Shown here: one piece after another, positions 12,015 to 33,278 of the stretch
Numbering within the stretch: position 1 is the stretch's first letter
Layout of the letters: each line of letters starts with the position of its first letter
Source: a bacterium
GTDB taxonomy: Bacteria; Actinomycetota; Acidimicrobiia; Spongiisociales; ZC4RG35
DNA: 64,000 nucleotides
Direction: 5' to 3'
Assembly (NCBI GenBank): GCA_028823995.1
Contig: JAPPFD010000040.1
Location: 62,001 to 126,000 of the forward strand
Program-made: the position numbers and the translations under genes
The notes under the pieces: model-generated
Told to the model about the DNA's origin: nothing
What the model saw: only the letters and a program-made list of their open reading frames with translations
Databases searched by the model: none

Positions 12015-13403
12015 ATGGCAACCGGCGGATCCGGGACGCCGTTGCGGCGCATAGCGATCGTCGGCGGAGGAATTTCAGGGTTGGCGGCCGCGTGGGGGCT
12101 GCATCACCACCCGGACCGGTTTGACTTCCGGCTGTTCGAGGCCCAGGACCGGATTGGCGGGAATGCGGTAACAGCCGAGATGCCTCAGGGTGACGGCACC
12201 TCTATTCCCTTTGACATATCGGTCACCGCCTGCATCCCGTCGGTGTATCAGCACATCGTCTCTTTGATGGAGCAGTTCGGCATCGAGTTGATCGATACCA
12301 GGTTCAGTTACAGCGTGAAGTACCGCGGCCAGGTTTACGCGCACGACTTCGACTCCGAGATCAGAGATCAGCTTCAAACCGAGATCGCCAAGTTCCAAAG
12401 ACTCCTGAGACGCCTGCACTGGTTCGGCGGTCTGACCCGTTCCCGGTCGAAGTTTCTGAACGCCCTAAACCCGTTCAATTACGTCAGCATGGGGACGGTC
12501 CTGAACCTGGGAGGCTTCTCCGGTGACTTCAGGTACAAAGTACTGAAGCCCATGTTCGTCAACTTCCTGATGGCGACGAATGTATTCGACATGCCAGCGG
12601 CTCTCTTTTCAAGGTATCTCGAGTTCTTTGACATCGAAACCGCCACGCCCATGCAGACATGGGACCAAGGGACGAGACGCATCTACGAGAACCTGTCGGC
12701 AGGCTTCGGGGACAAGATATACCTGAGCCGGCCGGTGCGGAAGGTGTATAGGTCGTCATCCGGTGTGGTGGTTGAAGACGAAGAAGGCGCCAAGGAGGCG
12801 TTCGACGAAGTGGTATTCGCATGCAATGCGAACCAGACGTTGATGATGCTTGACCGGCCCACCCTGCTGGAACGCTACATTCTCTCGTCGATCCGCTACG
12901 AGAGCGAACTTCACAACCACACGGTGGTCCATTCGGACTCATCGGTCCTTCCCGACAACGAGGTAAGGCCTCTGAAGACCCGCAGCAACCACATCGAGCA
13001 GTACGGCGTCAGGCCGGACAACTATGAGATCACCTACATCATGCACAACCAGCAGCCATGGGCGAACAGGTCCGACAAGCCCTGCCTGGTGACCTACAAC
13101 CCGATCAGCCCCATCGACAGAGAGAGAATCGTTGGAAGATGGTGGTTCCAACACATCGTGCACGATGTGCGACAGGTTGCCTGGCTCGTGTATCTGTTTC
13201 GTTACATCCAAGGCAAGAGGCGGACCTGGCACTGTGGGGCCCACACGCTCATAAACAGCCAGGAGACCTGTTTCGTGAGTGGGCTTTCCGCGGCAACTCA
13301 GATCGGCGCGGATTATCCGTTCGACGATGCCGAAGCACGCCGGTCGTTCAACCATTACGGGAGTCTCATGCACGGCTTGCGCTTCCGTAAAGCGAGGGGT
13401 TGA
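12015..13403 (+). CDS. FAD-dependent oxidoreductase / amine-oxidase-like NAD(P)-binding protein
   Basis: RIAIVGGGISGLAAAWGL dinucleotide-binding motif, FEAQDRIGGNA; C-terminal GLSAATQIGADYPFDDAE. Confidence 0.88.
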   Translation: MATGGSGTPLRRIAIVGGGISGLAAAWGLHHHPDRFDFRLFEAQDRIGGNAVTAEMPQGDGTSIPFDISVTACIPSVYQHIVSLMEQFGIELIDTRFSYSVKYRGQVYAHDFDSEIRDQLQTEIAKFQRLLRRLHWFGGLTRSRSKFLNALNPFNYVSMGTVLNLGGFSGDFRYKVLKPMFVNFLMATNVFDMPAALFSRYLEFFDIETATPMQTWDQGTRRIYENLSAGFGDKIYLSRPVRKVYRSSSGVVVEDEEGAKEAFDEVVFACNANQTLMMLDRPTLLERYILSSIRYESELHNHTVVHSDSSVLPDNEVRPLKTRSNHIEQYGVRPDNYEITYIMHNQQPWANRSDKPCLVTYNPISPIDRERIVGRWWFQHIVHDVRQVAWLVYLFRYIQGKRRTWHCGAHTLINSQETCFVSGLSAATQIGADYPFDDAEARRSFNHYGSLMHGLRFRKARG

Positions 13404-13578
13404 CGTCCCCCGACGCGTGCCGTCCATAAGGCCCAATGTTCGTTTCCCCGATGATGCGGGTCGACCGGCTTCTTCGCTCCATGCCGGATTCCGGCCCCAT
13501 TTCCACCGCCGGTGCAGGTATACTGCCTTCCCTACGATGGACTGAATTGGTCTGGATCGGTTGGGAGAGACCGGAGCG

Positions 13579-15603
13579 ATGGTTCTTTCTACAAGTGATG
13601 TGACAACCAATCCGTTGAGTTTGGCGGATGAACTCGTACTGATGCTTCTCAACGAGGAGAACGGCTACTTTCATCAGGTACCCGGCTGGGACCTGAACTG
13701 CGCCGTGATCGGAGCGGTGCTCGCGGAGCTCTCGCTCATGGCCCGCATCGACACGGACCAGGACTCGCTGTTCCTTCTGGACCCGAAACCAACAGGCAAT
13801 CCCGCCCTGGACCCCGTCCTGGAGGAGATCGCGGCTGATCAGGTCCAACGAAGCGCCCAATACTGGATCGAGAGGCTTGCTCCCCGTGCGGAATCGATCA
13901 TTGACCTGACCCTGGACCACCTGGTTGAACGCAAGATTCTGGAACACCACAACGGGGACTTCTGGACGCTGGCTCGCACCAAGGGACAATCGGAGATGTT
14001 CAACGGATCGGCAGGCAGCGGAATTCAGTTCGTCAAGACCCGCATCACTCAGGCCATTTTCAACAACGAGATTCCCGATCCGAGGGACATCATCATTATC
14101 TGTTTGGTCAACACTTGTGACGTGTTTCGCTTCATGTTCCAGCTCGATGAGGAAGCGGAGAAGCGCATCGAGTTCATCTGCAACATGGACCTGCTGGGTC
14201 GGTCGATCGCTGCGGCGGTCTCCCACAACCTCTCCGGGCCGATTTTTCGCCGCTCCGCCCTGAGTAAGAAGATTCCGTCTGTTCCTCTGCGGAAGGTGAT
14301 TTTCAATTCGAACATACGCAAGGGGAACATCCCCGCACTCTTTGCGGACCTGGCCAAGGAGTACGGACCGGTGTTCCAACTCCGCCCACCATTTGTCGGT
14401 CCGAAGATCTTCCTCGCCGGTCCGGAGATGAACCATTGGGTCAACCGCAACGGACGCATGTACCTCAGGGCCAAGGACTACTTCGCGGACTTCGAGAAGG
14501 TCTATGGCGCTAATGGAGTTCTGCCCTCCCTGGATGGCGCCGACCACTTCCGGCTTCGCAAGTCCATGGCGCCGGCGTATTCCCGCAGAAGGCTCGCGGG
14601 TCAACTGGAAGAGGTCTATGGTCAGGTGCGAGAACATATGACGACTTGGGAGGTCGGGGAATCCTACCCTGCCACCAGGATGTGCCGGCGACTGGTGAAC
14701 GCACAAATCTCGCCGCTAATGGTCAGTGTTCATTCCCAGGACATCATCGACGACCTGATGACCTTCAAGGAACGAGCGCTGAACACTCACATCATCGGGA
14801 TCCTGCCCAAGTTCATGCTGAAGACGCCGGGTATGAGACGCCGGGCGAAGGCTGTCGATACATTGCTCGAACGGGTGCAGAGGGGGCATACTCCAGCCCA
14901 GCGGGCGGGAAGCCCGCGCGACCTTGCAGATGACTTTCTGAGCCTGCACGCCAGCGATCCACAGTTCGTACCCGAGGCGAACCTGACGTTCGCCTTTGGA
15001 GCAGCGCTGGTCGCCAGCGTGTACCTCGGCGATGCGGTCAGCTTCGCCCTGTATGCAATGGCGGCGCATCCGGGCCTTCAAGCCAGGGTCCAGAGCGAAG
15101 CCGATGCTTTGTTCGCCGACGGCGATCCCGATGGCCGCGACTTCAGCCTGTCGAATATCGACGTCACCCATCGCATGATGATGGAATCTCTGCGTATCTA
15201 TCCGATCGTCCCAATGTCCATGCGGAACGTGATGAACTCATGCCTGGTCGAGGGATACGAGTTGCCGCTGGGGTCAAGGGTCCACATCGCCCAGACCGCC
15301 GCGCACTACATGGAAGATGTCTTTCCCGAGCCCTTCAAATTCGATATCGACCGGTATCTGTCCCCGCGCCTCGAGCACCAGAGCCCCGGGTACGCGCCGT
15401 ACGGGCTGGGCACCCACAAATGTCTCGGGTCCCGGTGGATGGAACTCCAGTTGACACTCAACGTGCTCCTGGTGGCGCATCACTTCACACTGGAAGTGCA
15501 ACCTGCCAACTACAAGCTCAAGTTCAGCCCGTTGCCCTCGTTGAAGCCGAGCAAGAAACTGAAGTTCCGCATCGCCGAGCAGAGGAACGAGATACGCGTC
15601 TGA
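13579..15603 (+). CDS. GPP34 (Golgi phosphoprotein 3-like) domain fused to cytochrome P450
   Basis: N-terminus LSLADELVLMLLNEENGYF...VIGAVLAELSLMARIDTD...PTGNPALDPVL plus RI...PDPRDIIIICLV (GPP34); C-terminus ESLRIYP (ExxR) and YGLGTHKCLG haem-ligand motif. ATG at 13579 (TTG 13561 possible). Confidence 0.87.
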   Translation: MVLSTSDVTTNPLSLADELVLMLLNEENGYFHQVPGWDLNCAVIGAVLAELSLMARIDTDQDSLFLLDPKPTGNPALDPVLEEIAADQVQRSAQYWIERLAPRAESIIDLTLDHLVERKILEHHNGDFWTLARTKGQSEMFNGSAGSGIQFVKTRITQAIFNNEIPDPRDIIIICLVNTCDVFRFMFQLDEEAEKRIEFICNMDLLGRSIAAAVSHNLSGPIFRRSALSKKIPSVPLRKVIFNSNIRKGNIPALFADLAKEYGPVFQLRPPFVGPKIFLAGPEMNHWVNRNGRMYLRAKDYFADFEKVYGANGVLPSLDGADHFRLRKSMAPAYSRRRLAGQLEEVYGQVREHMTTWEVGESYPATRMCRRLVNAQISPLMVSVHSQDIIDDLMTFKERALNTHIIGILPKFMLKTPGMRRRAKAVDTLLERVQRGHTPAQRAGSPRDLADDFLSLHASDPQFVPEANLTFAFGAALVASVYLGDAVSFALYAMAAHPGLQARVQSEADALFADGDPDGRDFSLSNIDVTHRMMMESLRIYPIVPMSMRNVMNSCLVEGYELPLGSRVHIAQTAAHYMEDVFPEPFKFDIDRYLSPRLEHQSPGYAPYGLGTHKCLGSRWMELQLTLNVLLVAHHFTLEVQPANYKLKFSPLPSLKPSKKLKFRIAEQRNEIRV

Positions 15604-15660
15604 CTCTCCGGTGACCGAGGTCTCTGTTCACCACACCTGAGGCGTCGGGTAGCCTCCGGT

Positions 15661-15685
15661 AGCGGTTAGCCGATCAGCAACCGCT
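15661..15685. terminator. Inverted repeat between convergent genes, possible bidirectional terminator
   Basis: agcggtt-11 nt-aaccgct. Confidence 0.35.
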
Positions 15686-15693
15686 CCGGTCCC

Positions 15694-18159
15694 CTATTCG
15701 AAGCGTTCGTACACGGCTTCGATCGCATCGTCAAGCTCGTCAAGCTCGGTCTCCCAGCGCAGCATCTTCGAGCGCAGTCGCACATTCTGGTACGCCCCCC
15801 ACATGGTCATGGCTGGCGGCACCAACACGATGGACACGACCAGCGAGTACGCGATCGTGATGGCGGCCGTTATGGCGAACTGCTGGGATGCGACCAGCGG
15901 CGAGAACACCAGCACACCCAGTCCGAGCGCGGTGGTCAATGCCGAGCCCAGCAGCGCCGACCCTGTAATCGAGAGCGTCCTGACTGCGGCTTGCTCCGGG
16001 TCGCGCGCCAGGGAGTACTCCTCGCGATAGCGGTGAATCATGTGGATGGTGTAGTCCACCCCGATCCCGATCGAGAGGGCCGTGATAATGGATGTTATGA
16101 GCGTGTAGGGGATGCCCAGCAACGCCATGGTGCCCAGCACCGAGATCAATACCAGCACGATGGGGAACACTGCGATGAATCCCAGCGCAGGCTGGCGTAC
16201 CGTCACCCAGAAGAAGAGGGCGAGGACGGTCAAAGCCACGGCAATGGTGGTGCTGATAGCCTCGGTCTGCTGGTCCGTGATGGCGTCGGTGACGGTGAAT
16301 GAGATGATGCTGGACGAAGTTGCCGTCAGGGCGTCGTTGTCACCCAACCAGAGTTCCTCGAGCTCCTCCTGGGTGTCTCTCGACCGCGCGGTGTCGCCGG
16401 CAAAAGCCACGAATTGAATCAGCATGGCGTCGGTGCCGTCCGGATCGTTGACCAGGAGGCGTCCCAATCCGGGATCTATCGCCTCGATCCTGTCGAGCAA
16501 TTCCTGCATCTTCTGTGCGTCCAGTTCGATTCCCGCAGAGGCTTCCTGGAGCAACGCGGCCAGTTCGGGGTCGTACTTGTCACCCGGCTCCCCGCTGTCG
16601 TGGGTCCAGTCGCTAACCAGCAGGTTGTACGACGCGATGATCGGCCCTGCTGCGGCCCCCGGGCGAAGCCTCTCGTCCTCGAAGGCGTTCGTGAGATCGT
16701 GCAGGTTGAGAAGCGTGCGGGTCTCGGTGGCCTCGGCTTTCACAAGCACGCTGTACATCTCCGTCGAGCCGCCGATGGTCGCATCTAGGGTGTTCAGGTC
16801 CTCCAGCAATCCCCCGCCTCTCGGAAGGATGTCGCGGATGTTGAACTCCGACTCGAGGTCGGTCGCCGCGAATCCGAGCGCCACCGTCACCGCCAGCACC
16901 CCCACGACATAGGGTGTGGGCCGGCGGGTGACCCCTCTTCCCAGCAACTCCGCCAAAGGCCTGACGCCTGGCAGGGCATTCGAGATCGGCCTTGGCGCCT
17001 TCAGCTTGCCCCGTGCTTCCTTCCTTCTGTCGATGATCGTCCGACCGGCCGGAATTAGGGTAAGCATCACCGACAGGCTCATCGCCACGCCCAACCCTGC
17101 TATGACACCGAAGTCGTTGACTATCCCGATCGGGGAGAACAAATTCACCAACAGGCTCACGATGGTGGTGACCGCGGCAAGCGTGAGCGGCATGGTGACG
17201 TGTCTCAGTCCCACCTGGACGGCCCCGGTTACCTTCTCGCCGGCGACACGTTGCTCGCGGTAGTGCGAGACGATTTGGATCGCGTAGTCCACCGTTAGAC
17301 CGATCAGGATGATCGGCACCATGGTGGTGAGGGAATTGGGGGGGCCTACCACACCCAACCCGTTGGGACCGAGCCACCCTTCTGTTCCGACGATCCAGAT
17401 GATGGATAGGAACAGTCCTCCCAGGGTGAGGAGAAGGTCCGACACTGAGCGCATGAAGACCAGAATCAGCGCTGCGATCAAAAGAAAGGCCATCCCCACC
17501 AACGGCGCCATCCCTTCCTCCGTGGCCCTCTTGTACTCGTCTTCGATCACCACGGGTGAGATGCTGCTCACCTGCAACGGACCCTCATCTGCCAGCGCAA
17601 GGTCGTGGACCGCCCGGGAAGCAGCGTAGATGCGGTCGTCGTTGGTGTCCTGCAGGTTGATATTGGCTATGGCTATGTGCGTCCCGTCCGTGTCGACTCC
17701 GGTCGTAGCCTCAAGCGCTTCCCCGATCCCGGGGACGTTGCGGACGGAATCGATTTCGGCCTGCGTCACCGACTCTAAGGAGTCCACTCCGAGCACGGCT
17801 CTGACCAGCAAGGAGGGCGCGAACACAGGATCGGGATGCGCCAGCATGTCTCCCACGCTCGGATCGGCCGCGATCTCACCGATCAGGCTGTCCATCTGTG
17901 AGAGTCCCTCGGGCGTAAGCGCGTCTCCACGGAAGATGAGCGTGGCGACATGGGCCTCGGCGTCTCCAAAGAGTTCTTCGATCTCGGCCAAGGCCTTGGC
18001 GACGTCGCTCCCCTGGGGAAGGGTCTCGGCGGTCTCCGGCGGCTCCGCCCGGTACGTCGACCCTGCGCCCAGTGCCACTGTGATGATGAGCAGGACAATT
18101 ATGGTGATCCATGGGTAACCAGTCACCAGCCTGCGCAGCCGATCGAGTAGGTTGCTCAT
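15694..18159 (-). CDS. MMPL/RND-family transporter (two MMPL halves)
   Basis: MSNLLDRLRRLVTGYPWITIIVLLIITVALG start; GLTVDYAIQIVSHYREQR and SIGIGVDYTIHMIHRYREE duplicated motifs; start moved to 18159, because the longer ORF reads into the Rieske gene. Confidence 0.92.
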   Translation of the reverse strand: MSNLLDRLRRLVTGYPWITIIVLLIITVALGAGSTYRAEPPETAETLPQGSDVAKALAEIEELFGDAEAHVATLIFRGDALTPEGLSQMDSLIGEIAADPSVGDMLAHPDPVFAPSLLVRAVLGVDSLESVTQAEIDSVRNVPGIGEALEATTGVDTDGTHIAIANINLQDTNDDRIYAASRAVHDLALADEGPLQVSSISPVVIEDEYKRATEEGMAPLVGMAFLLIAALILVFMRSVSDLLLTLGGLFLSIIWIVGTEGWLGPNGLGVVGPPNSLTTMVPIILIGLTVDYAIQIVSHYREQRVAGEKVTGAVQVGLRHVTMPLTLAAVTTIVSLLVNLFSPIGIVNDFGVIAGLGVAMSLSVMLTLIPAGRTIIDRRKEARGKLKAPRPISNALPGVRPLAELLGRGVTRRPTPYVVGVLAVTVALGFAATDLESEFNIRDILPRGGGLLEDLNTLDATIGGSTEMYSVLVKAEATETRTLLNLHDLTNAFEDERLRPGAAAGPIIASYNLLVSDWTHDSGEPGDKYDPELAALLQEASAGIELDAQKMQELLDRIEAIDPGLGRLLVNDPDGTDAMLIQFVAFAGDTARSRDTQEELEELWLGDNDALTATSSSIISFTVTDAITDQQTEAISTTIAVALTVLALFFWVTVRQPALGFIAVFPIVLVLISVLGTMALLGIPYTLITSIITALSIGIGVDYTIHMIHRYREEYSLARDPEQAAVRTLSITGSALLGSALTTALGLGVLVFSPLVASQQFAITAAITIAYSLVVSIVLVPPAMTMWGAYQNVRLRSKMLRWETELDELDDAIEAVYERFE

Positions 18160-18220
18160 TACGTGTCCTTCCATTCGGGACCGGCCGGGGAGCGCCGCGA
18201 CTTGAAGCCGGCTCCAATGC

Positions 18221-19297
18221 TCATCCCACCGAACCTCCTGCTTTGATACTGACTGGACTGGGCGAGTCACCCGGATCAGGGTAGAACTGGGTGCAATACC
18301 GTCGGTACCGCATGATCTCGCCGTCGGAACGACAGAGGCGCGGGCGGGGTATGAACCGCTTCTTCTCCCAGATGACCAGGTCCTGCAGAACGTCATGCCG
18401 TTGGAAGGTGGACATGAATCTGTTCATGAGGGGCGCCCGGAGCCCCACCGGGAGAAAACCCATCCCCGCAATCCAGCGCTTCGGTCGGCGAATCTCTTTG
18501 ACCTGGGAGGCCAGCGACAGGTCGATGAGCGTTCCGTCCACGGGTGTCGCCAGTACCCAGAGGCGCAAATCCATGCCGATGGAGTGTTCCCGGATTCTCA
18601 CGTAGGAGTACCCCAAGCCATAAATGCGCGTCCTGGCCGAGACGTCTGTGGTGAACTTTGCAACCCCACCTATCGTTTGCGTTCTTCTGAAATCGAAGTC
18701 GCTCTCAAGGCGGGGGCCTTCAATAATCACTTTCTCGGCGCGTTTCACACTGTCGTAGCCATGGACATACCGCAGGTGGCCCAAGTCCACGGAGTTCTCG
18801 GTCGTCTCCTGGGGGTGGCCGGGGAACCGCAAGGTGGTGATTATGAGATCGCTCCACCCGGCTTGGTCCGGTAACTCGGAGGGCAGGCGCCACTGCGGTT
18901 CCCGTCCGCCGACGCCCCACCAGGCGAAGATCATGTCGGCGACCTGCCGCGTCTCGAAGACTCGGAGCCGCGTGAACTTGGGCGGGTTTGCGTAGGGCGT
19001 TGCGACGCATTCGCCGGTCGCGTCGAACTCGAAGCCATGGAACGGGCACACGAGTCGACCATCGCAGACGCGGCCTCCGCCGGAGGGAGTCAGGTCGGAG
19101 CCAAGATGCGGGCAGACGGCCTCGGCTACGCACACCTGCCCGTCCTCGTCGCACCAGACCACGATGTTCTCTCCCATCCAGGTCTTCTCGACGAGCTTGG
19201 CCTTCCGGAACTCCTTCAGACTGGCGACGAAGTACCAGCCCTCAGGAAAAGGGGAAGGCAGTGGGGCGGTCTCAAGCCCCGTATTTCCAATTGACAT
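18221..19297 (-). CDS. Rieske (2Fe-2S) non-haem iron oxygenase, sterol 7-desaturase (DAF-36/Neverland)/KshA-like
   Basis: CPHLGSDL...CPFHGFEFDATGECV Rieske motif; ENSVDLGHLRYVHGY mononuclear iron site. Confidence 0.88.
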   Translation of the reverse strand: MSIGNTGLETAPLPSPFPEGWYFVASLKEFRKAKLVEKTWMGENIVVWCDEDGQVCVAEAVCPHLGSDLTPSGGGRVCDGRLVCPFHGFEFDATGECVATPYANPPKFTRLRVFETRQVADMIFAWWGVGGREPQWRLPSELPDQAGWSDLIITTLRFPGHPQETTENSVDLGHLRYVHGYDSVKRAEKVIIEGPRLESDFDFRRTQTIGGVAKFTTDVSARTRIYGLGYSYVRIREHSIGMDLRLWVLATPVDGTLIDLSLASQVKEIRRPKRWIAGMGFLPVGLRAPLMNRFMSTFQRHDVLQDLVIWEKKRFIPRPRLCRSDGEIMRYRRYCTQFYPDPGDSPSPVSIKAGGSVG

Positions 19298-22121: not shown

Positions 22122-24320
22122 GTGACGAGGAAATTGGCCCGTATGAGCGCCCGCAGGCCATGGATTGTTGTGGGCGTTTGGGTGTTGGTGGTTGCAGTGG
22201 CGCTGGGACTCGTTCAGGCCCTGCTGCCGAGCGCTACCACCACCGAGTTGAGTTTGGGGAGCGACTACGAGTCAGAGCAGGCAGCGGCCCTGCTGGAGGA
22301 GAGGCTACGAGGGCCTACACCCCTCAATGAGTTGGTGATAGTCCAGTCTCCGTCGATGACGGTCGATGATCCTCAGTTCCAGGCAAAGGTCGAGTCCATC
22401 CATGACCAGGTCACGGCGTTGGGACCGGAGACCGTTGTGTCGGGATCGCACTACTACCTGAGTGGCGAGGAGCTTCTCGTGTCGGCCGACCGCAGGACTA
22501 CCATCATGAGCTTCGTCCTGGCGGGCGACTTCAAGGAGGCGACCGAGAACGTCGAGGACGTGGTACACCTCGTCCAGGAGGCGGACGGCACAGACGGCTT
22601 CCGGGTGCTGATCGGGGGGGACGCCAGCGTGGCCTTCGAGAACAACGAGCTGAGCGCCGAAGACCTGGAGAAGGGCGAGCGGATCGGCATTCCCGTGGCG
22701 TTGATCATCCTGCTGACCCTATTCGGTTCGGTCGTAGCCACCCTGTTGCCGTTGGGGTTGGCCATTGTCGCCATTGTCCTGGCGCTGGGGGCGGTCGGGG
22801 TCATCGGCCAGTTCTTCGAATTGGTCTTCTTCGTGACGATGATGATCACGATGATCGGCCTGGCGGTGGGGATCGATTATTCCCTCCTGATCGTTTCCCG
22901 TTTCCGGGAAGAGTTGGATAGGGGTCTCGAGGTAAAGGACGCGGTCGCAAAGACTGGCGATACTGCTGGTCGCACGGTGCTGTTCAGCGGCACCACCGTG
23001 GTGCTGGCCCTCATCGGCATGCTCATCGTCCCCGTCTCGTTCTTCCGGTCGCTCGGCCTCGGGGCCATTCTGGTTGTCATTACCGCATTGGCAGCCACGC
23101 TTACGCTCCTGCCCGCGGTGCTGGCGTTGCTGGGCCCGAAGGTAGGTCTGTTGAGGGTGCCCTTCCTGGAGAGGTTCTCGCTGAGGAGTCCCCAGAGCAC
23201 TGAGCACGGGTTCTGGGAGAAGGTGACCAAGGCCGTCACGCGCTATCCCTGGGTCAGCATTCTCCTCACCAGCGTTCCCCTCATCTTCCTGACGGTCTTC
23301 TACTTTGACATCCATACGGGTCTGAACGACGTCAACTCCTTCCCCGACAAGTCGAAGACCAAAGAGACGTTCATCGTCTTCGAGGAGGAGTTCTCGGTCG
23401 GGGAGGTCACACCTGCCGGGGTGCTCAGTCCGGCGGAGATCGTGGTGGAGGCGAACATCGCCGACCCGCAGGTGCAGCAAGCAGGGTTCCGCCTGGTGCA
23501 GCTTCTCCAGGGGGACCCGGCCTTTCCGATCCCGCCGCAACTGGAAGTCAACGACGCGGGGGATCTCGCCCTGCTGTCGCTTCCGTTCCCGGGCGAGCCC
23601 AACAGCCGTCTGGCTACCGAGAGGCTCACCAAGATCCGGGAAGAGTACATTCCGGCGGCCTTCGAAGGCGTCGAAGCCGAGGCGTATGTCGGTGGCGTGA
23701 CGGCCGAGGCCACCGATTTCTACGGCATTGTCGATGTCTACACACCCATAGTCTTTGCCTTCGTCCTGGGTCTCAGCTTCATCTTGCTGATGCTCGTCTT
23801 CCGCTCGATCGCCATCCCCATCAAGGCGATCATCATGAATCTGCTATCGGTTGGCGCCACCTATGGCCTGTTGGTGCTGGTCTTCCAGAAGGGAGTGGGA
23901 GCAGACCTCCTAGGATTCCAGCGCGCCGAGGTGATCGACGCGTGGATTCCCCTGTTCCTGTTCAGTATCCTGTTCGGGCTTTCCATGGACTATCACGTGT
24001 TCTTGCTGAGCCGCATCCGGGAACGCTACGACCAGACAGGGAACAACGCCCAGGCGGTCGCATACGGTCTGCGCTCGACGGGAGCCATGATCACCGGCGC
24101 CGCCCTGATCATGGTTGCCGTGTTCGGTGGATTCGCGGCTGGTGAGACCGTCGTCAATCAGTTGGTGGGATTCGGGTTGGCCGTGGCCGTGTTCCTGGAT
24201 GCGACCCTGGTCCGGTCGGTGTTGGTACCCGCCAGCATGGAAGTGCTGGGAGCCCGCAACTGGTACCTGCCGTCGTGGCTCGGCTGGCTGCCGGACTTGC
24301 GGGTGGAAGCAGAAGAGTAG
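22122..24320 (+). CDS. MMPL-family transporter
   Basis: GLAVGIDYSLLIVSRFREE and GLSMDYHVFLLSRIRERYD motifs; GTG start. Confidence 0.93.
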   Translation: MTRKLARMSARRPWIVVGVWVLVVAVALGLVQALLPSATTTELSLGSDYESEQAAALLEERLRGPTPLNELVIVQSPSMTVDDPQFQAKVESIHDQVTALGPETVVSGSHYYLSGEELLVSADRRTTIMSFVLAGDFKEATENVEDVVHLVQEADGTDGFRVLIGGDASVAFENNELSAEDLEKGERIGIPVALIILLTLFGSVVATLLPLGLAIVAIVLALGAVGVIGQFFELVFFVTMMITMIGLAVGIDYSLLIVSRFREELDRGLEVKDAVAKTGDTAGRTVLFSGTTVVLALIGMLIVPVSFFRSLGLGAILVVITALAATLTLLPAVLALLGPKVGLLRVPFLERFSLRSPQSTEHGFWEKVTKAVTRYPWVSILLTSVPLIFLTVFYFDIHTGLNDVNSFPDKSKTKETFIVFEEEFSVGEVTPAGVLSPAEIVVEANIADPQVQQAGFRLVQLLQGDPAFPIPPQLEVNDAGDLALLSLPFPGEPNSRLATERLTKIREEYIPAAFEGVEAEAYVGGVTAEATDFYGIVDVYTPIVFAFVLGLSFILLMLVFRSIAIPIKAIIMNLLSVGATYGLLVLVFQKGVGADLLGFQRAEVIDAWIPLFLFSILFGLSMDYHVFLLSRIRERYDQTGNNAQAVAYGLRSTGAMITGAALIMVAVFGGFAAGETVVNQLVGFGLAVAVFLDATLVRSVLVPASMEVLGARNWYLPSWLGWLPDLRVEAEE

Positions 24321-24341
24321 GCGGGCCCATGGGCGCCACCG

Positions 24342-25529
24342 GTGAAGGCTAGGTCGCTGATGTCCATTCCCTCGGACTATCGGGATGGGTATGAAAAGGC
24401 CCGCCTCGTGGATGCGGAAATGGCCGACGCCTACGTCCAGCACATGCACCTGGGCGACCCGGTGGCCGACGCAATGATGGGTGAACTGGCAGCCATTCCC
24501 GCCAAGGACGCCCACCGATTCATCGAAGCGGGAATGGAGGGGGATCAAGACGTGCTCAAAGATGCGCCCCCTCTCCTGGTCAAGTTCTTTGACAGCCTGA
24601 ACAATCCACCTGATTGGTTGGACACTGCCGCTTTCGTTCCCGGCATCAGGATGTTCCACAGGAATTCCAGAGTGGTCCTGGTGGGTTTCGTGGGCGGCGT
24701 TCTGGTTGAGGGATTCGCCACCAACATCAGCAAGTCCTTTTTCATCACCGGACGCCTGCGCGACCAGGGCGTGAGGCGTTTGAAACAGAACAACCGCCAT
24801 ATGCTCGAGTCCTTCCTCCCCGGCGGTCTGGACAGGCAAGGCGACGGCCTGAAGCTGTCGGTTCGCGTGCGCATCATTCATGCCCAACTCCGGCAGCTGC
24901 TCAAAGAGTCCGATGACTGGGACTCCGACGCCTGGGGCCTTCCTTTGAGTGCTGCCCACCTTGGGTATTCGATAACCGCTTTCTCAGCGCGGCTCCTGAA
25001 ACATATGAAGGGGCTGGGAGCGACCTTCGACGAGGAGGAACGCGCCAGTTTCATGGCTGTGTGGCGCTACATCGGCTACCTGATGGGGATTCCCGAGACC
25101 ATCCTGTTCAAGAACGAGGATGAGGCTCTGAGAGTGTTCAGGATCGGAGGCATGGTTGAACCTCCCATAAGCCTGGAGTCCATAGCCATGTCCAATTCCC
25201 TGATCGCCTCCGCGCCTTATGTCGCCGGCATACCCGATCACGACGCCCGGGTGAAGCTGACCGATTACGCCTACAAACTCTCCAGGGCGCTCATCGGCGA
25301 CCCTCTGGCCGATGAGCTCAAGTATCCCCACGGTCGCTCGCTCGGGGTTCTTCTGAACTTCCGGAACCTGGGACGCCTCCGACGGATCATGGGCAAGAGC
25401 TTTCCCAAACTCGTTAACAACCCGTACACCTATTTTACAGGGCTTCTTGAGGTGTCGGCCTACGACGAGGCGGGAATCAGCTACCGGTTGCCGGACCACG
25501 TCTACGCGGAGGAATCCAGCTTCTACTAG
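24342..25529 (+). CDS. DUF2236 / MpaB-Lcp-like oxygenase family protein
   Basis: VRIIHAQLRQLL...WGLPLSAAHLGYSITAFSARLLKHMKGLGATFDEEERASFMAVWRYIGYLMGIPE. Confidence 0.82.
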   Translation: MKARSLMSIPSDYRDGYEKARLVDAEMADAYVQHMHLGDPVADAMMGELAAIPAKDAHRFIEAGMEGDQDVLKDAPPLLVKFFDSLNNPPDWLDTAAFVPGIRMFHRNSRVVLVGFVGGVLVEGFATNISKSFFITGRLRDQGVRRLKQNNRHMLESFLPGGLDRQGDGLKLSVRVRIIHAQLRQLLKESDDWDSDAWGLPLSAAHLGYSITAFSARLLKHMKGLGATFDEEERASFMAVWRYIGYLMGIPETILFKNEDEALRVFRIGGMVEPPISLESIAMSNSLIASAPYVAGIPDHDARVKLTDYAYKLSRALIGDPLADELKYPHGRSLGVLLNFRNLGRLRRIMGKSFPKLVNNPYTYFTGLLEVSAYDEAGISYRLPDHVYAEESSFY

Positions 25530-30685: not shown

Positions 30686-30899
30686 TGCCAGAGCCGGGGC
30701 GATGAGGTTGATGAATCGACGGATACCGGGACAGTTCTGTGGTGCTGGCAGGGAAGGCCTTTAGCCGCGGAGCGACAATTTTAACGGCGCTCTTCCCTTG
30801 TCTCCTATGACTCCCCTAGCCCGGTTGACCACCTGCAGTGACCAGGGGCGGAAAATGGCGAATCGGTATGATTCTGGCCATTGTTTGGTTGGTGAGACG

Positions 30900-33278
30900 A
30901 TGAAGCATGTGCTGGTCGGGGTCTTGGTGGCGGTGTTGATCGGGGGTCCGTCTCTTGCCGACCCGGGGGGCACGGATGGCTTTGGCTCGGGGTGGGAGGT
31001 CCACGGTCCCGAGACGTCGCCCGAGTCGGTGACCGACGGTGGCGTTGGAGGAGTCGACTCACCGGATGGGATGTTGGTGAGGGGTTCCGAGTTGGCCGCC
31101 GCCGGGGCGCAGAGCGGCTCGGCGGGGTACTCGGTGGTGTCGGCCGGGGCGGCGCACTCGTGCGGGGTGCGTGTCGACGGGTCGTTGGTGTGCTGGGGCG
31201 CTAACCACTTCGGGCAGGCCTCGGCGCCGGAGGGTTCGTTCTCAGCGGTGTCGGCCGGGGGTGTGCACTCGTGCGGGGTCCGTACCGATGGCTCGATGGT
31301 GTGCTGGGGCTTCAACAATGACTGGCGGGCGACCGCCCCGGGGGGTACTTTTTCTTCGGTGTCCGCCGGCGTGCGGCATTCCTGCGGATTGCGGACCGAT
31401 GGCTCGGTCGTGTGCTGGGGCGCCAACCACTTCGGGCAGGCGTCCGCTCCGAAAGGTGCGTTTTCCTCTGTGTCCGTCGGTGTGGAGCATTCGTGCGGGG
31501 TGCGTACCGATGGCTCGGCGGCGTGCTGGGGGAATGACGATGACGGGAGGGCGAGTCCGCCGGGGGGTTCGTTCTCGTCGGTGTCGGCCGGCGGTGTGCA
31601 TTCGTGCGGGTTGCGTACCGATGGGTCGGTGGTTTGCTGGGGTTCGAACATCGACGGGAGGGCGAGTCCTCCGAGTGGTTCGTTCTCGTCGGTGTCCGCT
31701 CGGTGGTGGCATTCGTGTGGGTTAAGTACGGATGGGTCGGTGGTTTGCTGGGGCAACGACGCCTTTGGGCAGTTGGGAGCCCCGACAAGTCCGTTTTCGG
31801 CGGTCTCCGCCGGCCGGGAGCATTCGTGCGGGTTGCGTACCGATGGGTCGGTGGTGTGCTGGGGAAACAACGTCTTTGGTCAGACAACCGCCGCAGGTGG
31901 TCCCTTCATTGCGGTGTCCGCCGGTTGGCGTTACTCATGCGGACTGGAGACCGATGGGTCATTGGTGTGCTGGGGCAATAATGACGACGGGAGGGCAAAC
32001 CCGCCGGGCGGTTCCTTCACAGCGGTGTCCGCCGGCGCCTTCCACTCCTGCGGGGTACGGGTGGATGGGGTGGTGGCTTGCTGGGGCTCCAACGCCGATG
32101 GGAGGGCGAGTCCGCCGGGGGGTTCGTTTTCCTCGGTGTCGACCGGCGGGGTGCACTCATGCGGCTTGCGCACCGACGGGTCGGCGGAGTGCTGGCGCCG
32201 TACCGGTCTGGTGCCGGAGGGTTCGTTCACGGCGGTCTCCGCCGGTCTGGCGCATTCGTGCGGGTTGCGGCCTGATGGCTCCGTGGAGTGCTGGGGTCAC
32301 AACGCCTACCGGCAGTCAGTCCCGCCGGGCGGTTCGTTCACGGCGGTCTCCGCCGGTGGAGCGCATTCCTGCGGGTTGCGCACCGACGGATCAGTCGAGT
32401 GCTGGGGAGCCGACCACCTTGGGCAGTCGACGGCCCCAGAGAGTACGTTTTCGGCGGTGTCCGCCGGAGGGGAGCATTCGTGCGGGTTGCGGACGGATGG
32501 CTCGGTGGAGTGCTGGGGATACAACTCGGACGGGCAGTCACTTACCCCGAAAGGCTCCTTCACGTCCGTGTCCGCCGGCTTGGCCCATACGTGCGGGCTG
32601 CGTTCCGACGGGTCGATTGAGTGCTGGGGGGACAACGCCGTCTTCATTCCGGCGGCTCGCCCAGAGGATTCAGGGCCACCCGGGGAAGTGAAGGAGAGGT
32701 TCGCCGACATCGCCGGGAACCCGCACCGCGATGACATCAACCGCGTAGCCGTCTTGGGTATCACCCTCGGGTGCGCCACGGGAGCCGAACCCAGATACTG
32801 TCCTGACAGCCATGTGACGCGGGCGCAGATGGCCGCATTCCTGCTACGCGCTGTCGGGCAGCCCGATCCGAGGCCCACCGGCGCCAACCCGTATTCCGAT
32901 GTTCCTGCTGGCGCCTGGTACACCCCTTACGTCCTCCGGCTGGCTGAAATGGGAGTGGATACCGGCATGAACGATGGATGGCGCCCCGATGCTCCATTGA
33001 CCCGGTTGGAGATGGCCCGATGGTTGACCCGGTTCTTCGACCACATCACCCCGGCCACCAGCCCCCGGGGGCTGTTCCGCGACGTGGACCGTGAGGACTG
33101 GCCCGTAGTAGAGGGTCTCTACCGGTATGGCGTGACGGAGGGATGCTCCACACGGCCGTTCCGGTACTGTCCCGATCAGTCGGTCAGCAGAGCTGAGATG
33201 GCGTCGTTCATCATCCGGTCCCTTCCCGTACACCCACAGCGAGACAGCTTTTACCGGCCCTTCAGGGGTGTGCCTTAG
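30900..33278 (+). CDS. Secreted RCC1/BLIP-II-like repeat protein with C-terminal SLH domains
   Basis: Signal peptide MKHVLVGVLVAVLIGGPSLA; 14 units of FSAVSAGGxHSCGxRTDGSVxCWG; SLH-like NPYSDVPAGAWYTPYVLRLAEMG...LTRLEMARWL and VSRAEMASFI. Confidence 0.88.
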   Translation: MKHVLVGVLVAVLIGGPSLADPGGTDGFGSGWEVHGPETSPESVTDGGVGGVDSPDGMLVRGSELAAAGAQSGSAGYSVVSAGAAHSCGVRVDGSLVCWGANHFGQASAPEGSFSAVSAGGVHSCGVRTDGSMVCWGFNNDWRATAPGGTFSSVSAGVRHSCGLRTDGSVVCWGANHFGQASAPKGAFSSVSVGVEHSCGVRTDGSAACWGNDDDGRASPPGGSFSSVSAGGVHSCGLRTDGSVVCWGSNIDGRASPPSGSFSSVSARWWHSCGLSTDGSVVCWGNDAFGQLGAPTSPFSAVSAGREHSCGLRTDGSVVCWGNNVFGQTTAAGGPFIAVSAGWRYSCGLETDGSLVCWGNNDDGRANPPGGSFTAVSAGAFHSCGVRVDGVVACWGSNADGRASPPGGSFSSVSTGGVHSCGLRTDGSAECWRRTGLVPEGSFTAVSAGLAHSCGLRPDGSVECWGHNAYRQSVPPGGSFTAVSAGGAHSCGLRTDGSVECWGADHLGQSTAPESTFSAVSAGGEHSCGLRTDGSVECWGYNSDGQSLTPKGSFTSVSAGLAHTCGLRSDGSIECWGDNAVFIPAARPEDSGPPGEVKERFADIAGNPHRDDINRVAVLGITLGCATGAEPRYCPDSHVTRAQMAAFLLRAVGQPDPRPTGANPYSDVPAGAWYTPYVLRLAEMGVDTGMNDGWRPDAPLTRLEMARWLTRFFDHITPATSPRGLFRDVDREDWPVVEGLYRYGVTEGCSTRPFRYCPDQSVSRAEMASFIIRSLPVHPQRDSFYRPFRGVP
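31128..32669 (+). repeat. 14 tandem coding repeats of 111 bp (37 aa), one unit shortened by 4 codons
   Basis: Repeat units counted from the translation; each has a Cys pair (SCG...CWG). Confidence 0.85.

Follow-up and report, generated by a model that had tools for sequence, protein, structure and literature searches.

A GPP34-cytochrome P450 fusion gene spread horizontally among mostly sponge-associated bacteria and tied to sterol genes

It is an open question which organisms make the unusual sterols found in sponges. The matter bears on 24-isopropylcholestane, which has been proposed as a biomarker for the earliest animals (PMC10070321). Sterol genes have already been described in sponge symbionts. 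In the accessible part of their paper, Kelly et al. (2022) report steroid gene clusters (ERG24-CYP51-ERG7 with a sterol methyltransferase, SMT) of Ircinia symbionts (PMC9531527), and the accessible text of Brown et al. (2023) reports sterol methyltransferases in sponge symbionts (PMC10070321). The GPP34 domain is known from GOLPH3, in which the PI4P-binding residues are W81, R90, R171 and R174 (PMC13408441). Here we describe a bacterial gene in which a GPP34 domain is fused to a cytochrome P450, and we show that this fusion is genuine and conserved, has moved between lineages and is associated with sterol genes. Our literature search found no paper joining GPP34 with P450 in bacteria, or GPP34 with sponge symbionts.

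Architecture of the fusion protein

The fusion gene (13579..15603, plus strand; 674 aa) lies in the window, that is, the whole stretch of 64,000 nucleotides analysed here, and was identified by ORF reading, Pfam and homologue alignment. It runs from an ATG at 13579 to a stop at 15601-15603, giving 674 codons without any internal stop. Pfam assigned aa 15-214 (13621..14220, plus strand) to the GPP34 (GOLPH3-like) domain (PF05719, E 1e-28, 101.2 bits against a cut-off of 29.1) and aa 247-662 (14317..15564, plus strand) to cytochrome P450 (PF00067, E 4.8e-38, 131.5 bits against a cut-off of 22.8). The AlphaFold model of the whole protein had a mean pLDDT of 82.5. An earlier note on this DNA had called the N-terminal ~230 aa GPP34 and the remainder a P450 with ExxR and Cys-ligand motifs, and both calls are borne out by these scores, by the GOLPH3 fold of the first half and by the invariance of both motifs in 43 homologues. 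Its worry that residues ~5-230 might give no significant GPP34 match is answered by the Pfam result.

The GPP34 half, when modelled alone, matched the GOLPH3 structures 9qpq (E 2.7e-8, TM 0.70) and 3kn1 (E 3.1e-7, TM 0.69), and its significant structure matches were limited to GOLPH3 and Vps74. It also has a beta-hairpin at aa 121-131 (13939..13971, plus strand) that is the counterpart of the membrane-inserting hairpin of GOLPH3, as judged from the model, conservation and alignment to GOLPH3; by sequence and model only, its strands are 121-124 and 128-131, and F128-W129-T130 within it is nearly invariant in the fusion-family alignment. The same fold and the retained hairpin would fit a GPP34 half that acts like GOLPH3 itself and positions the P450 by attaching to PI4P-like phosphoinositides or to enzyme tails. 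However, W81, R90, R171 and R174 of GOLPH3 correspond in the alignment to P35, I/V/A44, E/D105 and I108 of the fusion family, so that none of the four PI4P-contact residues is retained (PMC13408441). Because all four are replaced, the PI4P-type membrane binding suggested in the earlier note fails, and we regard GOLPH3-like action as very improbable. The broader part of that suggestion, namely that GPP34 docks the P450 on a membrane or recruits a partner, is still the most likely role. Membrane seating without PI4P would be the simplest reading, and partner recruitment is possible.

The P450 half matched P450 structures with TM-scores, calculated by target, of 0.72-0.82 among the best 50. It contains the ExxR motif E536-S-L-R539 (15184..15195, plus strand) and the haem-ligand Cys615 (15421..15423, plus strand) within YGLGTHKCLG, and E536, R539 and C615 are invariant in the 43 aligned homologues. 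Typical P450 monooxygenases have an acid-Thr pair in the I helix. Profile comparison and alignment showed that this pair is replaced in the fusion by Tyr482-Leu483 (15022..15027, plus strand); across the fusion family the acid position is an invariant Tyr482, and the Thr position (483) is Leu, Val or Met. A gapless reading of the I helix had put Val-Tyr at these positions, and it was overturned in favour of Tyr-Leu by divergent second copies of the fusion at loci L068 and L061, in which the I helix is AGHYLG or AGHYTG. The register is fixed because one divergent copy reads AGHYTG. The Tyr-Leu pair suggests that oxygen activation may be unusual (peroxygenase-, desaturase- or isomerase-like) rather than that of plain hydroxylation.

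By profile, the closest solved P450s are CYP51s, the best being that of Methylococcus capsulatus (E 4e-31). The fusion nevertheless lacks the close full-length similarity of a CYP51, given that the CYP51 beside the fusion in Nitrospira reaches ~1e-100. It is ~24-28% identical to other P450s of the same order.

Distribution and horizontal spread

We scanned one genome per species from 85,462 species, a search sensitive to close relatives only, and obtained 53 loci. Of these, 47 (the window's copy among them) gave alignments longer than 600 residues, with identities of 54-94%. This count is approximate: it includes one divergent second copy each from L061 and L068, and loci for which an overlapping frame had been chosen are not in it. 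These second GPP34-P450 copies (L068, 10097-12142, plus strand; L061, 11441-13444, minus strand) lie near the first copy and show 42-43% identity. Every one of the six genomes of the window's genus has the fusion (85-100% identity), and so do another nine genomes from its order. The MAGs carrying it are labelled Acidimicrobiia, Chloroflexota, Latescibacterota, Gemmatimonadota, Nitrospira, Acidobacteriota, Alphaproteobacteria and Gammaproteobacteria. The possibility of an assembly artefact, which had been raised as an objection, is excluded, because the same unbroken fusion recurs within the genus, elsewhere in its order and in MAGs assigned to several other phyla. The window genome is itself a MAG and one homologue (L047) may be mis-binned, but with the fusion unbroken in 47 of 53 loci and in six of six genomes of the genus, the probability that assembly or binning produced it is negligible.

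According to isolate names and papers, the fusion carriers with a readable origin are sponge MAGs. The RHO and COS isolate names fit Rhopaloeides and Coscinoderma samples (PMC8163846), and some 'bin' names are consistent with Aplysina aerophoba MAGs. Although several MAG series are of unread source, restriction of the fusion to sponges is likely. We did not find the fusion in viral contigs or among 72,556 plasmids, where no record covered 80% of the query. In a sample of 298 Actinomycetota genomes, 41 of which have GPP34, there was no fusion outside the window genome when P450 was looked for in long GPP34 frames only.

The gene tree, built from 43 sequences, showed none of the tested phyla or classes as monophyletic; it required 13 changes where 7 would be the minimum. 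Within it, the window's genus clustered with Chloroflexota (98/98), away from the other acidimicrobial family. Identities of 75-79% are frequent between P450 halves of different phyla. Since the gene tree mixes phyla in this way, we conclude that the fusion gene has spread by horizontal transfer. The earlier note, although correct in its domain calls, missed this spread among mostly sponge-associated bacteria, as well as the sterol-modifying cassettes described below. Separately, contig JAJDXG010000004.1 (L047), labelled Gemmatimonadetes, encodes fusion, AcrB and Rieske proteins that are 94-97% identical to gammaproteobacterial copies (95-97% for the fusion), which may reflect either a recent transfer or a mis-binned contig.

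Neighbouring genes and sterol metabolism

Profile matches identified three neighbours of the fusion in the window, together spanning 12015-19297. Upstream on the same strand is an amine oxidase family FAD protein whose nearest solved relative is LkcE (12015..13403, plus strand). An MMPL/RND transporter with a sterol-sensing/Patched-like match (15694..18396, minus strand; homologues suggest a start near 18171) and a KshA-like Rieske oxygenase (18221..19297, minus strand) are found on the other side. We then counted neighbours within ~8 kb of the fusion in the 44 loci longer than 11 kb. An RND-superfamily transporter (MMPL or AcrB) occurred in 37 of the 44, a KshA-like Rieske oxygenase in 33, an SMT-like methyltransferase in 23 (a few of them, as at L055 and L062, outside the SMT2 clade described below) and an amine-oxidase-like FAD protein in 21. 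Acidimicrobiia and Chloroflexota have an MMPL-type transporter; those of Acidobacteriota, Gemmatimonadota, Latescibacterota and two Gammaproteobacteria are AcrB-like. One further neighbour family, 'c7', proved to be the Rieske gene read in an antisense frame and was dropped.

Across loci, distances of the fusion correlated with those of each partner (rho 0.41-0.82; 0 of 500 permutations as high). The correlation was strongest for MMPL and SMT2; for Rieske, the rho between phyla was only 0.11. These uneven correlations indicate that the cassette has been reshuffled and not transferred as a single block. Elsewhere in the window, a second MMPL gene is directly followed by an MPAB/rubber-oxygenase-family gene (22122-25529, plus strand), and a gene at 30798-33278 (plus strand) encodes 13 RCC1 repeats and an S-layer homology domain; its product is eukaryotic-like and probably surface-bound.

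Both the Sterol_MT_C domain and SMT motifs are present in SMT2, which forms a single divergent clade separate from other SMTs in the tree. It was assigned by the tree and clade profiles; classing on the Pfam bit score alone was rejected as unsafe, since acidobacterial SMTs overlap. In the window's order, SMT2 was present in 15 of 15 fusion-positive genomes, and any SMT in one of 25 fusion-negative genomes. In Chloroflexota, an SMT was present in six of seven fusion-positive genomes versus none of 72 fusion-negative ones, and it directly adjoins the fusion in five genomes. The Fisher tests on these counts take no account of common descent between genomes, and the counts reflect few independent gains. 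In the window genome SMT2 is located away from the fusion (G000:C10), and no SMT was found in six of 29 fusion-positive genomes of other phyla.

The Nitrospira loci (L046, L070 and L054) combine the fusion with SMT2 and/or SMT and an oxidosqualene cyclase ORF, and it is in Nitrospira loci that the genes of a full de novo sterol cluster (epoxidase, cyclase and CYP51) were seen. A CYP51-like P450 lies near the fusion in L046 and L054, of which the L046 copy alone was compared with solved CYP51s (E ~1e-100). In L046 squalene epoxidase is in the same frame as oxidosqualene cyclase. Continuous ORFs covering both enzymes (L046, 13078-16740, minus strand, 1220 aa; L054, 12439-15849, minus strand, 1136 aa) possibly represent epoxidase-cyclase fusions of Nitrospira symbionts.

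Although it carries SMT2, the window's genus lacks both oxidosqualene cyclase and squalene epoxidase, and the window's cassette has neither cyclase nor CYP51. Therefore, the genus makes no sterol skeleton, and an acquired sterol is the likely substrate. It could be supposed that such a sterol, taken from the host, is degraded as food, with the Rieske protein as a true KshA; its nearest solved relative is indeed KshA. However, the HsaC-type extradiol dioxygenase model TIGR03213, a proxy for a single marker of 9,10-seco degradation, had no match in the six genomes of the genus, so that on this one marker the genus does not degrade sterol rings. Other fusion carriers gave weak matches to this model. 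The partners of the fusion, moreover, are methyltransferases and, in Nitrospira, biosynthetic genes, and we consider steroid degradation quite improbable.

A different lipid substrate (terpenoid, fatty acid or carotenoid), with an indirect link to sterol genes, would suit a genus that makes no sterol skeleton, and P450 specificity is unreadable from sequence. Against this, SMT is tightly associated with the fusion in two phyla and a sterol cluster surrounds it in a third, so we judge another lipid to be unlikely.

Proposed function and comparison with known systems

We therefore favour a sterol role, because sterol-type neighbours are conserved across phyla, SMT tracks the fusion in two phyla, the Nitrospira fusion lies in a sterol cluster, the nearest solved P450s are CYP51s, and the window's genus has no cyclase or epoxidase. 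The passage of the fusion among phyla with sterol-processing genes argues that it probably helps to remodel sterols, perhaps those of the host. In our assessment, the fusion is likely a membrane-associated P450 in a sterol-modifying pathway. The substrate would be a sterol, obtained in the window's organism from the host or the host's diet. The GPP34 half would seat the enzyme on the membrane by its aromatic hairpin, by a partner protein or by both, with PI4P not being the ligand, and this seating could let the P450 draw sterol from the bilayer. The P450 might then oxidise or desaturate the sterol, most likely at the side chain, as a step of the pathway to which SMT2 also belongs. The Rieske and FAD enzymes may modify the sterol further, and the transporter may move the product. 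A narrower scheme, which we offer only tentatively and think has the odds against it, is a mobile cassette, common to sponge symbionts from many phyla, for making or remodelling sponge-type sterol side chains. In it, GPP34-P450, with its unusual Tyr-Leu I helix, would introduce an alkene into the side chain of an acquired sterol, or rearrange that chain, and SMT2 would then alkylate it. If this side-chain model is true, bacteria that cannot build the skeleton themselves have a part in producing sponge-specific sterols.

Symbionts were already known to have methyltransferases and core sterol clusters, and the fusion marks a further set consisting of P450, Rieske, SMT2 and transporter. This set is spread across phyla and reaches bacteria unable to make the skeleton, and thus symbiont editing of host sterols becomes directly testable. 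In addition, the bacterial GPP34 domain gains a concrete biochemical setting. In the accessible main text of Kelly et al. (2022), the passages on steroids, P450, Rieske proteins and operons mention P450 once, as CYP51 context, and do not mention GPP34-P450 (PMC9531527). The accessible main text of Brown et al. (2023) does not name P450, Rieske or GPP34 (PMC10070321); the supplements of either paper may list these genes unnamed.

Among known systems, GOLPH3 and Vps74 share the fold and the hairpin with the GPP34 half, but in the fusion the PI4P-binding residues are replaced and GPP34 is joined to an enzyme. SCO4440 of Streptomyces, a bacterial GOLPH3-like protein, also has the GPP34 domain, but it is unfused and tied to peptidoglycan and wall-deficient cells (PMC12402492). 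The window genome likewise has one unfused GPP34 protein (L001, G000:C3:103207-103797), which is ~38% identical to the fused domain. The CYP51 (sterol 14-alpha demethylase) of Methylococcus capsulatus is the nearest solved P450 by profile; its I helix differs from that of the fusion, and a true CYP51 occurs separately in the same Nitrospira cluster. As far as the accessible texts allow comparison, the SMT family is common to our loci and those of Brown et al. (2023), whereas SMT2 is a separate clade (PMC10070321). In the Ircinia clusters, too, sterol genes are horizontally shared among sponge symbionts of many phyla, and it is in a cluster of this kind that the fusion is found in Nitrospira, whereas the cassette of the window differs from these clusters in having no cyclase or CYP51 (PMC9531527).
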